Positions 3,163-47,068 of a DNA stretch of 64,000 nt are shown here, piece after piece. The position numbers and the translations under genes are program-made. The stretch's first letter is position 1; every line of letters starts with the position of its first letter. Source of the stretch: Sorangium aterium. GTDB lineage: Bacteria; Myxococcota_A; Polyangia; Polyangiales; Polyangiaceae. Where the stretch lies: positions 3,782,001 to 3,846,000 of the forward strand of contig NZ_JAQNDK010000001.1 of NCBI RefSeq assembly GCF_028368935.1, written 5' to 3'. The notes below the pieces were generated by a model. It saw only the letters and a list, made by a program, of their open reading frames with translations. It was not told where the DNA came from and made no database searches.

Positions 3163-3454
3163 TGCAGTGTGGATTCTAGACGGAGGCAAGGAGATCGCAA
3201 TAGATCTCGCAGGCGGTCTCGTGCTGCCGCGCGGGGGTCTGGATGTGGGGGCGCCATGGTTTCTGGCGGCGCGGGCTCCGGCGGACCGCCGCGGATGCCC
3301 GGCGTGCTGCGCTGCGCAAGCGGGGCCCCGGTGCGCCGGCGGCCACCTGCGCGCCACCAGCGCGCAGCGTCGGCCCGCGCGGCGTCCGTGCTCGCCGTGC
3401 TCGCGAGCGCATCCCCCTCGCCGGACACCGCTGCTGTCAGGAACTTCACTCACC

Positions 3455-3496
3455 GACGGCGCTGCCGACGCCCGCGACGGCGCTGTCGACGCCCGC
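3455..3496. repeat. 21-bp tandem duplication in the 3163-3681 intergenic region
   Basis: GACGGCGCTGCCGACGCCCG-C and its next copy differ at one base (C to T). They sit in the 519-bp gap between the divergent lipoprotein gene (start 3162) and kinase gene (start 3682). I see no credible gene in the rest of this gap; open frames across it are Arg/Ala/Pro-rich and typical of non-coding high-GC DNA. The gap must carry promoters for both genes. Confidence 0.5.
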
Positions 3497-3681
3497 GTCG
3501 GACCGCGCCTGTCACGGCGCTCCGGGGAGCCATCTCGTGGCCGTATCGAGCCCGAGGCGCCCGGAACGTGGCGCACAGAAGGACAATCCATCTAACATCT
3601 CCCGGCTCATCGTGGCCGGCGGCTTTCCTATCCTGTACGCTCCCCTCGCCTCCCCTCGGCTATCAGGAGGAAGCCATCACC

Positions 3682-5145
3682 ATGCAGTTCGCTCCGGATT
3701 CCGTCGTAGGTGGGAAGTATCGTCTTGAGCGACCTCTCTCGCACGGCGGGATGGGCTCGGTGTGGGTGGCGCGACACGTCAACTTGGGCTCTCTCGTCGC
3801 GGTCAAGTTCATGGACCCGACCTATGCTGCGTCGTCGACGTTCCTCGCTCGCTTCGAGCGTGAAGCCAGGATCGCAGCGAGCCTTCAGAGCCCACACGTC
3901 GTCTACGTCCAAGACTTTGGCGTCGACGACGACACTCCGTACCTCGTGATGGAGCTGCTTCAGGGTGAGGACCTGGGCACGCGTCTCGAGCGCGTCGGCC
4001 GGCTCTCTCTCGTGGACGCCACCCTGATCCTCCTGCAGGCCGGCAAGGCCATCCGTCGCGCGCACGACGCCGGCCTCGTCCACCGCGATCTCAAGCCTGC
4101 CAATCTGTTCCTCGTGCGTGTGGAGGGAGAGCAGGACGAGGTCGTCAAGATCCTCGACTTCGGCATCGTCAAGGAGACGGGCGCGGTGCTGACGGAAGAG
4201 GTGACCCGCACCGGGGAGCTGCTCGGCTCGCCCCACTACATGAGCCCGGAGCAGGTCCGGGGCGAAAAGGACATCGACCAGCGCAGCGATCTCTGGTCGC
4301 TCGGGGTCATCCTCTTCTATGGCGTCACCGGCGAGCTGCCCTTTCAGGGGGCCCAGCTCGGCGCCGTGATCGCCAACATCCTGGTCGGTCCAGTGCCCAG
4401 CGCGTCCCTGATCGCGCCCGACCTGCCGCCGGAGATCGATGCCTTCTTCGCGCGGGCGCTGGCCCGCGAGCGGGCGGAGCGCTTCCAGTCGATCGGAGAG
4501 ATGATGAGCGAGCTCCGCCGTATCGCGGGCACGGCGTCGCCATCGATTCCGGATCTGCAATCCCCGTGCTCCGGCGTGCCGAGCACCGCTCGGCCGAGGC
4601 TCAGCGGGACGATAGCGCTCGACGCCGCCCAGCTCGACGAGCCAGCATCCGCGCCCCGCTCGGCGGGCCCCGGCACCCTGACCATCGCCGGATCGACGGC
4701 GCAGGAGGCCGGACAGCAGCGGCCTCAGCGCGCGATGCTGGTGGCCGGCATCGCGATGACGATGCTGCTCGGCGCCGGCGTCACCATCGCGGTGGGTGGG
4801 GGCGGAGCGAGCGGCGGGGACGGAGTGGGCGCGAAGGTCGCCTCGGCCGGCGCGCCGGCGTCAGCGGAGGTCGCCGCCAGCGTGTCGGCAGAGGTCGGGC
4901 GCTCCTCGGAGCCGCTGGAGAGCGTGACGCCCGCGGTGCCCGCTGCGGAAGCGACGGGCTCGGCAGCGGACGCCGCCGGCGAGACCGCGGCGCCCTCGAC
5001 GTCCACCACGGCAGCACGGCCGCCGTCGAGCGCCACGCCCAGGCCGCCGCACACGGGTGTCCCCGCCGCTTCCAGGAGGCCGCCAATCCCGCCGACGACT
5101 ACGCCGGGGCTCGACCGCGCACCGATTCCGGAGGTGCCCTTCTAG
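3682..5145 (+). CDS. Membrane-anchored Ser/Thr protein kinase
   Basis: The ATG at 3682 is preceded by AGGAGG at 3665-3670, a strong ribosome-binding site, which decides the start over a longer upstream frame. The N-terminal kinase domain (about residues 10-280) has a glycine loop HGGMGSVWVA, the ATP-binding lysine K42 in VAVKFMD, the catalytic loop HRDLKPAN (D136), DFG at 159-161 and SPHYMSPEQ as the APE region. All key residues are present, so it should be active. A Ser/Pro/Ala-rich juxtamembrane segment leads to one hydrophobic helix near residues 352-372 (MLVAGIAMTMLLGAGVTIAV). A roughly 110-residue Ala/Ser/Pro/Thr-rich tail follows, presumably outside the membrane. This is the usual myxobacterial PknB-like layout, without recognisable PASTA or TPR sensor repeats. 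Confidence 0.92.
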   Translation: MQFAPDSVVGGKYRLERPLSHGGMGSVWVARHVNLGSLVAVKFMDPTYAASSTFLARFEREARIAASLQSPHVVYVQDFGVDDDTPYLVMELLQGEDLGTRLERVGRLSLVDATLILLQAGKAIRRAHDAGLVHRDLKPANLFLVRVEGEQDEVVKILDFGIVKETGAVLTEEVTRTGELLGSPHYMSPEQVRGEKDIDQRSDLWSLGVILFYGVTGELPFQGAQLGAVIANILVGPVPSASLIAPDLPPEIDAFFARALARERAERFQSIGEMMSELRRIAGTASPSIPDLQSPCSGVPSTARPRLSGTIALDAAQLDEPASAPRSAGPGTLTIAGSTAQEAGQQRPQRAMLVAGIAMTMLLGAGVTIAVGGGGASGGDGVGAKVASAGAPASAEVAASVSAEVGRSSEPLESVTPAVPAAEATGSAADAAGETAAPSTSTTAARPPSSATPRPPHTGVPAASRRPPIPPTTTPGLDRAPIPEVPF

Positions 5146-5172
5146 CGCGGAGATGCCTTGTTGGCATTTTAT

Positions 5173-5259
5173 GAAAAATTGAACAGGGAGGCGGGGAGAC
5201 GGGGAGATTTGTGGGATTTCACTCCCCGTCTCCCCGTGAATCCTCTCGACAAATCGAGG
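5173..5259. repeat. Dispersed hairpin element, copy 1
   Basis: A perfect 15-bp stem (5192-5206 with 5222-5236, CGGGGAGACGGGGAG and its complement) encloses a 15-base loop. The surrounding sequence (GAACAGGGAGGCGGGGAGAC before, CGTGAAT and a TCGAGGG block after) matches a second copy at 45425-45511. Short direct repeats (GAAAAATTGA / GACAAATCGA) flank the hairpin. It lies between the convergent stops at 5145 and 5271, so it could also end transcription from both sides. Confidence 0.75.
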
Positions 5260-5270
5260 GTTACTTCTGC

Positions 5271-6668
5271 TCACCGACAAGACACGTGCCAGCGCCCGGC
5301 GTTTCGATGCCGGCGACGAAGCATCAACAGCGCAAGGCCCATGGCGACGACCGCTGCGTACGAGCTCTTCGGCCTGGAATCGCCGGCGACGACCGCGCAC
5401 CCGCCTGTCTCACCCGATTCACCTGCAGAATCCGAGCCCACACCGGAGGTGGCGCTGTCAGCAGCGCCGCTCGTGCCGCTCGTGCCGCTCGTGCCGCTCG
5501 TTCCGCTCGGGTCGCTGCCGCCCGTCGTGGTGACTTCGCCGCCGCCGGCGGGCTGCCCGCCAGAGCCGACGGTCACCCCCTCGCCCACGCCTCCGCCGTC
5601 CCCCGAGGCGCCACCGCTCCCCGCAGCAGGCCCGGCGCCGCCGACGTTCTGGTCACCCCCGGAGCCGTCGCCCGAGCCACCCGTGCCGCCGCTGCCGGCA
5701 GCCTCGGAACAATCGGTCTCCGGATCGGCGCCACCGGCCTTGTCGAGACCGAAGAACGCGAGGATGGCGTCGGCCTCGTACGCCATGGAGTGCGCGCCGT
5801 TTCTTCCTGACCAGGCCTCGAACACCGTCTGGTTACACTCGTTCTTCCAGAACTGGCGATCATAGGTGGTCCCGCCCGATGTGATCATGTCGGTCGAGGT
5901 CGGGGTCTCGCTCAGCTCGAGGACGTTCGTCCATTCCTTGATCGCCTCGGCCTGGTTCTTGTAGTTGATCGTCGCGTCCGCCGTGCCGTGGAAGATCTGG
6001 AGGCGGGGGCGATGTCCCGTATACCCAGGATACATCCCGCGGACCAGGTCTCCCCATTGCTGCGCCGACTTGCTCGTCCTGCCCCCCGCGCAGTTGTTGC
6101 TCCATTGCTGGCCCGCGTCGAAGCCGTCCGCCCAGCACCCGGCTGCCACCCCCGCCCTCGCCGCGCCGGCCCGGAAGATGTCCGGGTACACCGCCAGCAT
6201 GGCTTGCGTCATCATCGCGCCGGATGAGCCGCCCATCACGTAGACCCGCTTCGGGTCGCCTTTGTACTTCTCGAGCGCGTACTTCACCATCTGAGCGACG
6301 GCCTGCGTGTCGCCTCCGCCGTCGTGGGTCAGGGATTTCGTTGTGCCCACATCCCAGCAGTTCCGGCCGGTGGCCTCCGGAAGGATGATGATGAAGCCGT
6401 TCTTGTCGGCGCCCGCTTTGACACCCGAGATGCTGTTGAAGAACGAGCTCACCGGCGTGCTGCAAGAGTGGCAGCCCACCACGATGGGCGGGTTCTCGGC
6501 CAGCTTGTCCGGCACGTAGATGTTCATGTTGACGTAGCTCGGGACGCCGTTCGCTCCCCACGTCGCCCGGCTCACCGCCTGCACTGACGCCGCGTACACC
6601 GGCATGGCCGCGAACAGCCCCAAAGAGAACGACGCGACCACGAAAACGCGATTCTGAAATCGACGCAT
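5271..6668 (-). CDS. Secreted CE1/PHB-depolymerase-type esterase (acetylxylan or feruloyl esterase) with MYXO-CTERM-like tail
   Basis: A signal peptide (residues 1-27, ending PVYAA) precedes an alpha/beta-hydrolase domain (about 30-308) of the family covering poly(3-hydroxybutyrate) depolymerases, feruloyl esterases and acetylxylan esterases. The nucleophile motif is GGSSG (S148), the acid is D231 in HGTAD, and the likely catalytic His is H292 in GRNGAHSMAY. It should remove acetyl or feruloyl groups from xylan-type polysaccharides; the exact substrate is an inference from family and context. A Gly/Ser/Pro-rich linker of about 110 residues then leads to a C-terminal Cys, a hydrophobic helix (YAAVVAMGLALLML) and RRRHR. 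That arrangement is the myxobacterial surface-sorting tail. It is transcribed alone and faces the kinase gene. Confidence 0.88.
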   Translation of the reverse strand: MRRFQNRVFVVASFSLGLFAAMPVYAASVQAVSRATWGANGVPSYVNMNIYVPDKLAENPPIVVGCHSCSTPVSSFFNSISGVKAGADKNGFIIILPEATGRNCWDVGTTKSLTHDGGGDTQAVAQMVKYALEKYKGDPKRVYVMGGSSGAMMTQAMLAVYPDIFRAGAARAGVAAGCWADGFDAGQQWSNNCAGGRTSKSAQQWGDLVRGMYPGYTGHRPRLQIFHGTADATINYKNQAEAIKEWTNVLELSETPTSTDMITSGGTTYDRQFWKNECNQTVFEAWSGRNGAHSMAYEADAILAFFGLDKAGGADPETDCSEAAGSGGTGGSGDGSGGDQNVGGAGPAAGSGGASGDGGGVGEGVTVGSGGQPAGGGEVTTTGGSDPSGTSGTSGTSGTSGAADSATSGVGSDSAGESGETGGCAVVAGDSRPKSSYAAVVAMGLALLMLRRRHRNAGRWHVSCR

Positions 6669-45268: not shown

Positions 45269-45424
45269 GCCGACCAGCGCGCCCGACGTCGGGTGTCGTC
45301 CGTCCGCAACCGGAACGGCATCCTCACTGCATGGAACAGGGACGAACGCGACACCGCCGTGCCATCGTTCCGTGCTGTAATGAGACGTTCCTGACAAACC
45401 CCTCGTTTTGCTCACATCTTTAGA

Positions 45425-45511
45425 GAAGAACTCAACAGGGAGGCGGGGAGACGGAGAGAACGGAGTGGTTTCACTCCCCGCCTCCCTGTGAATTTTCCCG
45501 AAGAACTCGAG
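45425..45511. repeat. Dispersed hairpin element, copy 2
   Basis: A perfect 16-bp stem (45435-45450 ACAGGGAGGCGGGGAG with 45474-45489) surrounds a 23-base loop. The flanks match copy 1 at 5173-5259 (AACAGGGAGGCGGGGAGACG before, a CTCGAGGGG block after). The direct repeat GAAGAACTC occurs on both sides (45425-45433 and 45500-45508). It is in the gap between the stop at 45268 and the start at 45557. Confidence 0.75.
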
Positions 45512-45556
45512 GGGATGCTTCAGGAGACGATCCCCAGAAAGGTCGGGTGCAGCGAT

Positions 45557-47068
45557 ATGCGATCGACGTCTTCTTTCTTGAAGCGATGCTCATGGGTTCG
45601 ACTGCCTCTGCTCACCGCGGCGCTCGCCATGCCCGCGTGCGCGGCCGATCTGCCGCTCGACGAGGAGGAGGGCGCGGAGGCGGAGCTCCTCGGCGAGCAC
45701 AGCGATGCGCTGTCGACGCGCGTCCGGCTCATGGCCGCCAACATCACGAGCGGCAACAACCAGAGCTACGATCCCGGGCACGGCAAGCGCATCCTGCAGG
45801 GAATCAAGCCCGACATCGCCCTGCTGCAAGAGTTCAACTACGGAGGCAACACCGCGTCCGAGATCCGCGGCTTCGTGGACGCGACGTTCGGCGCCGGGTT
45901 CAGCTACTACCGCGAGAGCGGGGCGCAGATCCCGAACGGGATCGTGAGCCGGTGGCCGATCGTGGCGTCCGGCGAGTGGGACGACACGTCGGTGAGCAAC
46001 CGGGACTTCGCGTGGGCGCGCATCGATATCCCCGGCCCCGGCCACGTGTTCGCGATCAGCGTCCACCTCCTGACCTCCAGCGCGTCGGCGCGCGACACGG
46101 AGGCGCAGGACCTCGTCTCGTTCATCGAGGCGAACGTGGCCCAGGGCGATTACCTGGTGATCGGCGGCGACTTCAACACGGGGAGCCGGACCGAGGCGTG
46201 CGTCTCGAGCCTCTCGGACGTCGTCGTCACGGCCGGGCCCTATCCCGCCGACAGGAACGGGAACGCGAACACCAACGCCGGCAGGACGAAGCCCTACGAC
46301 TGGGTGCTCGTCGACGGGGACCTGGAGGCGTACGAGACGGCCGTCGTGGTCGGCGGGAGCAGCTTCGCGAACGGCCTGGTGGCGGACACGCGCGTCTACT
46401 CGCCGCTGTCCGAGATCAGCCCCGCGCTCTCGTCGGACAGCGGCGCCTCGAACATGCAGCACATGGGCGTCGTGCGCGACTTCCTGGTCCCCGACGGCGG
46501 CGGCGGGGGCGGCAGCGGCGGGGCCGGCGGCAGCGGCGGGGCCGGCGGCAGCGGCGGGGCCGGCGGCAGCGGCGGGGCCGGCGGCAGCGGCGGGGGCACG
46601 GGCACCGCCGCCGTGATCATCAACGAGGTCCTCGCGAACGAGCCGGGCAGCAACACGGCGGGCGAGTTCGTGGAGATCGTCAATGTCGGCACGGCGGCGG
46701 CGGCCCTCGCCGGCTGGACGCTGTCGGACGGCACGTCGACGCGGCACACCTTCCCGACCGGCGCGTCGCTCGCGCCCTCGACGGCCATCGTCGTGTACGG
46801 CGGCGCGTCCGCCGTGCCGAGCGGCAGCGGGGCCGTCGCGGCGTCCACGGGGTCCTTGAACCTCGGCAACAGCGGGGACACGGTCACGCTGCGAAGCGCC
46901 TCGGGCGCGACCGTGGACACCGTCACCTACGCGAGCGGGCTCGCGGCGCAGGACGGCGTCTCGATGAACCGCAGCCCCGACGCCTCCACGGGGGTGCCGT
47001 TCGTGCTGCACAGCACCCTTGGCGCGAGCGCCTCTCCGGGCCTTCGCGCGAACGGCTCGGCGTTCTGA
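45557..47068 (+). CDS. Exonuclease/endonuclease/phosphatase lipoprotein with lamin-tail domain
   Basis: The start at 45557 (MRSTSSFLKRCSWVRLPLLT) gives a lipobox at C28 (AMPAC); the longer upstream frame begins inside the hairpin element. Residues about 50-315 form the endonuclease/exonuclease/phosphatase (DNase I-like) fold: RLMAANITSGN, IALLQEFNYGG (metal-binding Glu), IGGDFNTGS (Asp, Asn) and a C-terminal NMQHMGVVRDF with the catalytic His. The acidic partner in the usual SDH motif is Gln here. A Gly-Ser-Gly-Gly-Ala linker coded by 18-bp repeats follows, then a lamin-tail (LTD) beta-sandwich (VIINEVLANEPGSNTAGEFV, EIVN, GWTLSDG). LTD domains often accompany surface nucleases. The likely role is extracellular DNA or phosphodiester cleavage. 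Confidence 0.88.
   Translation: MRSTSSFLKRCSWVRLPLLTAALAMPACAADLPLDEEEGAEAELLGEHSDALSTRVRLMAANITSGNNQSYDPGHGKRILQGIKPDIALLQEFNYGGNTASEIRGFVDATFGAGFSYYRESGAQIPNGIVSRWPIVASGEWDDTSVSNRDFAWARIDIPGPGHVFAISVHLLTSSASARDTEAQDLVSFIEANVAQGDYLVIGGDFNTGSRTEACVSSLSDVVVTAGPYPADRNGNANTNAGRTKPYDWVLVDGDLEAYETAVVVGGSSFANGLVADTRVYSPLSEISPALSSDSGASNMQHMGVVRDFLVPDGGGGGGSGGAGGSGGAGGSGGAGGSGGAGGSGGGTGTAAVIINEVLANEPGSNTAGEFVEIVNVGTAAAALAGWTLSDGTSTRHTFPTGASLAPSTAIVVYGGASAVPSGSGAVAASTGSLNLGNSGDTVTLRSASGATVDTVTYASGLAAQDGVSMNRSPDASTGVPFVLHSTLGASASPGLRANGSAF
46508..46597 (+). repeat. 18-bp tandem repeat coding the interdomain linker
   Basis: Four perfect 18-bp units (46508-46525, 46526-46543, 46544-46561, 46562-46579) plus a partial fifth encode GGSGGA units. 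The repeat keeps the frame and is a candidate for copy-number variation between strains. Confidence 0.85.

Follow-up and report, generated by a model that had tools for sequence, protein, structure and literature searches.

Bacterial MITEs such as the Correia/NEMIS and RUP elements are short, gene-less and foldable, lie between genes, and carry inverted ends and a target duplication. The purpose of the MITE interior is usually left open, as it is assumed to be what remains of the parent element. Some of the largest genomes among bacteria belong to the genus Sorangium. Within our incomplete coverage of the literature, we found no publication dealing with MITEs in Sorangium or in any other myxobacterium. 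Insertion sequences of the IS10 subgroup are characterized by CT ends, a YREK motif and a 9-bp direct repeat (PMC2266710). Most REPs, in turn, can be sorted by a GTAG/CGTC foot tag, which stays unpaired beside a palindrome of 20-40 bp, at one of its ends (PMC3733652).

We analysed a stretch of 64,000 nucleotides from Sorangium aterium (hereafter the window) that contains two copies of a hairpin element. A sequence-only reading had placed them at 5173-5259 and 45425-45511; the element is real, and these limits were too narrow. An alignment of the copies including their flanks placed the hairpin in the middle of a longer unit (Table 1). Both copies are almost certainly insertions of a non-autonomous MITE from the IS10 group of the IS4 family, probably moved in trans by an IS10-like transposase. 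The mobile, MITE-like origin proposed earlier is thereby supported and can be specified. We place the MITE in the IS10 group because a full-length insertion sequence (IS) shares both of its ends and the 9-bp duplication and encodes an IS10-type transposase of the IS4 family; this placement rests on the ends, the YREK motif, the 9-bp repeat and the identity to the R100 protein. The limits of the unit, the ends shared with the IS, the 9-bp duplication, an orthologous site free of the element and a genus-wide family were observed directly. As far as our coverage of the literature reaches, the MITE family itself is new, while its kind is already known. A repeat family of Sorangium is thus explained as IS10-driven MITEs, with an insertion event that can be demonstrated.

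Table 1 Features of the two MITE copies in the window (positions count from the first nucleotide of the window; CM, covariance model)
Feature	Position	Strand	Evidence or remark
Copy 1, same MITE without left terminal repeat	~5158..5269	+	CM match 5171-5269, 91.3 bits; sequence
Copy 1, left hairpin arm	5192..5206	+	inner two of three octamers paired
Copy 1, right hairpin arm, CTCCCCGT CTCCCCG	5222..5236	+	
Target duplication (9 bp), left copy, GAGACGTTC	45382..45390		congener G004: one copy, element absent
Copy 2, complete MITE, 133 bp, IS10-type ends	45391..45523	+	CM 100.1 bits; ends; empty site
Copy 2, left terminal inverted repeat, CTGACAAACCCCTC	45391..45404	+	matches left end of full-length IS (CTGACAGATCCCCTCATTTT)
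Copy 2, left hairpin arm, paired octamers ACAGGGAG GCGGGGAG	45435..45450	+	third octamer ACGGAGAG in loop
Copy 2, right hairpin arm, CTCCCCGC CTCCCTGT	45474..45489	+	
Copy 2, right terminal inverted repeat, GAGGGGATGCTTCAG	45509..45523	-	matches right end of full-length IS (CTGAGGCATCCCCTC)
Target duplication (9 bp), right copy, GAGACGATC	45524..45532		

The unit consists of a left end (CTGACAAATCCCCTCATTTTGTTGGCATTTT...), the bases AAATTGA, a palindromic core and a right end (GAATTTTCCCGAAAAATTCGAGGGGATGCTTCAG). About 43 bp correspond to the left end of the IS and ~35-40 bp to the right end, and the core between them is built of 8-bp units according to the formula ACAGGGAG(RCGGGGAG)n, loop, (CTCCCCGY)nCTCCCTGT. 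Since the arms are tandem octamers, unit lengths change in steps of 8, with 126, 134 or 142 bp being common. The inverted ends of copy 2 span ~15 bp, and the terminal inverted repeats of the MITE start with CT, as do those of the autonomous IS. No transposase ORF is present in copy 2. Homology in copy 1 starts a few bases past the stop codon (5143-5145) of a protein kinase gene (3169-5145).

Insertion left a clear footprint. The flanks on either side of the unit were compared in 27 copies, with the duplication length left free between 5 and 12 bp. At 9 bp, the flanks matched at 6.85 of 9 positions, compared to 3.06 for swapped flanks (z = 12.1), and 15 of the 27 copies showed at most one mismatch. 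Lengths of 5-8 and 10-12 bp gave no comparable signal in the same copies (z ≤ 2.0). A 7-bp duplication, guessed from few copies, was replaced by 9 bp once all these lengths had been tested. As aligned, five of the 27 copies had no 9-bp duplication (at least 5 mismatches), which fits with age, rearrangement or misplaced ends. Copy 1 shows no duplication because its left end is lost. In congener G004, the site orthologous to that of copy 2 reads ...GTAATGCGACGATCCCGAGAA..., with a single copy of the target (GCGACGATC) and without the element. The sequence-only reading had also described a flanking direct repeat, and was right about its kind and wrong about its place. The proposed repeat GAAGAACTC (45425-45433 and 45500-45508) lies in the interior of copy 2 and was ruled out as an insertion duplication.

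Screening the DDE_Tnp_1 proteins of the genus for MITE-type ends identified intact insertion sequences in congeners G001 and G003, for example at L104 (1257-2707, 1451 bp), with CTGACAGATCCCCTCATTTTAT as left end, CTGAGGCATCCCCTCATATAAT as right end and a 9-bp duplication of their own (GTGGTAGGC). MITE left ends scored best against IS left ends and MITE right ends against IS right ends, with similarity extending over ~40 bp. Both this transposase (419 aa), which contains DDE_Tnp_1, and the IS10 transposase encoded by plasmid R100 match NF033591 (NCBIfam, IS4 family) above the cut-off. The two proteins are 27% identical and have the YREK region in common, which reads Y-GR-R-FCI-E-ETFRDI-K in the 419-aa protein; the R100 IS10 end is CTGATGAATCCCCTAATGATTTT. 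At 1451 bp, the Sorangium IS slightly exceeds the 1200-1350 bp published for IS10. Looking for a full IS beside isolated ends in congener G005 (L070, L091, L092) yielded no parent, which was instead identified through the DDE_Tnp_1 screen. The earlier call for a transposase with matching ends was thus answered in congeners by intact elements, and in the window's own genome by a remnant only. There we found a single C-terminal transposase fragment (C2:225452-225700, 60% identity, in a 99-aa frame) and no present mobiliser, and for this reason the copies in this genome may be stranded.

Together with the known behaviour of IS10, these data suggest the following route. An IS10-like IS would supply the transposase in trans, which would recognise the MITE ends and move the unit, probably by the cut-and-paste route of IS10, leaving a 9-bp target duplication behind. 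The arms of different copies vary by multiples of 8 bp and at individual sites, probably because the tandem units slip and mutate after insertion. The MITE resembles IS10/Tn10 (IS4 family, IS10 subgroup) in its CTGAnnnATCCCCT ends, the 9-bp duplication and the related YREK transposase, and differs in having no transposase gene, a length of 133 bp instead of ~1.3 kb and a palindromic core of octamers. Compared with Correia/NEMIS and RUP, which it resembles in overall build, it has other ends, another duplication length and 8-bp units in variable number.

A BLAST search with copy 1 against the window's own genome (7 contigs totalling 13.47 Mb) revealed that the two copies belong to a dispersed family. 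We derived a covariance model from 25 family copies, including copies 1 and 2, and it matched exactly these two sites in the window. Among the 150 of 2348 candidates scored in the own genome, at least 13 were strong copies (E < 1e-20) and at least about a dozen more were weaker or divergent, which makes about two dozen altogether; control patterns read backwards had zero matches in this genome. The further copies that the sequence-only reading had suggested looking for also exist in five congeners, and the family was thus present in all six Sorangium genomes searched. In a pattern search of named genomes, the element matched S. cellulosum So0008-312 and a Sorangium MAG. An Rfam search returned nothing above the gathering score, only hairpin-like sub-threshold matches to microRNA and viral families. 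Three half elements with one arm only and similar surroundings (L018, L030 and L017, at 2406302, 2487268 and 2487982 of contig C2 of the own genome, G000) were possibly duplicated along with neighbouring DNA.

The hairpins themselves were as described earlier. An ungapped stem search confirmed perfect stems of 15 bp in copy 1 (CGGGGAGACGGGGAG with CTCCCCGTCTCCCCG) and 16 bp in copy 2 (ACAGGGAGGCGGGGAG with CTCCCCGCCTCCCTGT), and both copies share the left arm as well as the outer flanks. The right arms, however, had not changed to match altered partners, as the sequence-only reading had proposed. The left arms are nearly identical sets of three octamers, whereas the right arms, of two octamers each, differ by two base changes, so that the right arm of copy 1 fits the inner octamer pair and that of copy 2 the outer pair. 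Because the unit (RCGGGGAG) repeats, some pairing register is always available, and the shifted yet matching stems are explained more simply by tandem-octamer arms that let any right arm pair.

To the claim that covariation between the two copies reflects structural selection, the own genome lends no support: own arms paired no better than swapped ones (13.23 vs 13.75, p = 0.88). The same comparison gave p = 0.07 and 0.31 in G005 and p = 0.43 in G003/G004, two sets weakened, unlike that of the own genome, by a wrong anchor in L073 and a poor one in L087. The pooled set across subfamilies was the sole one with a signal (p < 0.001), because both arms changed together between subfamilies: the arms are ACAGGGAG/CTCCCTGT in G000 and G005, and ACATGAAG/CTTCATGT in G003 and G004. 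One single copy, L075, also carries a concerted change of both arms (ACAGTGAG/CTCACTGT), and two-sided changes affect 5 of 16 stem pairs in counts on the named structure. Arm covariation is therefore seen between subfamilies and in L075 but not within the own genome. In the transposing line, pairing is maintained or restored, either by selection or because one arm is copied onto its partner. In resident copies it is not visibly kept, as swapping the arms between copies of the own genome costs no pairing. More generally, tandem-unit arms of two hairpins can mimic covariation. A further copy in the own genome, L178 (C1: 3249578), has a perfect stem of ~25 bp with ACATGAAG-type arms; the other copies there are mostly of the ACAGGGAG type.

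What, then, could the hairpin be for? A REP or REPIN, moved by a RAYT (a Y1 tyrosine transposase acting on a single-stranded hairpin), would likewise appear as a single long imperfect palindrome, dispersed and intergenic, and an unpaired basal step (TTGA-ACA on the left, TGT-GAAT on the right) is conserved in several genera. Yet the stem is flanked by TTGA and GAAT where the defining GTAG/CGTC tag would stand, and IS10-type terminal repeats together with a 9-bp duplication mark a DDE transposase rather than Y1 chemistry. The REP-like character suggested earlier is therefore not supported, and we give this explanation almost no credence. Tagged REPs (PMC3733652) share with the Sorangium MITE that they are dispersed extragenic palindromes, but they measure 20-40 bp instead of 133 bp and differ in tag and in the DDE-type duplication. 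It is also improbable, if less so, that the hairpin has a host function as an intrinsic terminator or RNA processing site under pairing selection, with its spread being secondary. The long G+C-rich stem followed by GAATTTTC, folding on either strand and the conservation of the core across genera would suit such a role. Against it, the U run is short, own arms show no pairing advantage over swapped ones within the genome, and the gene pair at the empty site of G004 manages without the element. Neither are gene ends favoured, with 11 copies in tandem, 6 in convergent and 4 in divergent contexts according to a rough gene caller based on G+C by codon position, by which 11 of 32 copies were unclassified or overlapped a predicted gene.

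A stronger candidate, although we rate it somewhat below an even chance, is that the palindromic core serves the transposon, for example by protecting it against transcription that enters from its surroundings or by facilitating cruciform formation or strand transfer, with selection acting on the master element and not on residents. Transcription entering from outside inhibits IS10, and such a role would accommodate both the joint change of arms between subfamilies (G000/G005 vs G003/G004) and in L075 and the free decay of resident copies. The covariation counts are small, however, and copying of arm onto arm during palindrome repair could give the same covariation. This idea concerns the role of the core and is compatible with an IS10-group MITE.

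The core is also found outside Sorangium, as the covariance model matches other genera of its family. There it reads TTGAACAGGRAG(RCGGGRAG)n...CTYCCTGTGAATT, with the same unpaired foot step and different ends. In G008, a member of another genus, the core lies between the ends CTAGGGCGCCGATCAGCTTGA and CTAGAGCACCGAACAGGTTGA, which are flanked by CTAG on either side, and similar ends occur on insertion-sequence fragments (L280, L281). The N-terminal frame of this insertion sequence gives a partial match to the IS1182 family model, with a score under the whole-protein cut-off. These IS1182-type MITEs share the core TTTAACAGGGAGGCGAGGAG...CTCGCCTCCCTGTGAATT with the Sorangium MITE and differ from it in the CTAGAGCACCGAACAGGTTGA ends, the CTAG flanks and the matching IS1182-family fragments. 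About 25 near-identical copies were seen in G008 (L221-L234, L255-L283), many of them at contig ends, so that repeats interrupt this assembly.

The length and detail of the core make its common descent across end types likely. Whether one core has been passed as a module between MITEs with unrelated transposase ends (IS10-type in Sorangium, IS1182-type in G008, and more in G000, G028 and G084) we regard as evenly balanced. If so, the core would act as a cassette that ensures the success of a non-autonomous element irrespective of the transposase involved, and the sharing would offer a test of the purpose of MITE interiors. To our knowledge, one core between ends of two or more unrelated transposase families is unusual among MITEs.

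Further end types surround the same core. Type B elements in the own genome (C2: 284304, 450694, 577435, 2401388 and 2454041; L173, L182, L170, L185 and L184) have the same arms, the loop AAAAACTTAGTAA and the ends TGGTCRACTTTGCCC; neither a duplication nor a parent was found for them in this genome, where the type-B end pattern matched, besides known copies, mostly core-less sites and no full IS. G028 has two further end types, L195/L236 (GACCCGCCAAGNCGCCAGA) and L235/L237 (TAGGCRTTAACCG). In G084 (L201-L220), cores carry a second hairpin in the loop, often lie a few bases past a stop codon, and have CTAG- or TTAG-like bases and purine-rich ends.

The window contains two other short repeats. 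An 18-bp tandem repeat (GCGGCGGGGCCGGCGGCA, 5.5 copies, 46497-46595) lies inside the gene downstream of copy 2, which had no Pfam or NCBIfam match. A PHA-depolymerase-like protein with a weak MYXO-CTERM tail (5271-6668, minus strand) contains a nine-base tandem repeat (GCCGCTCGT, 5466-5509) in its C-terminal linker.
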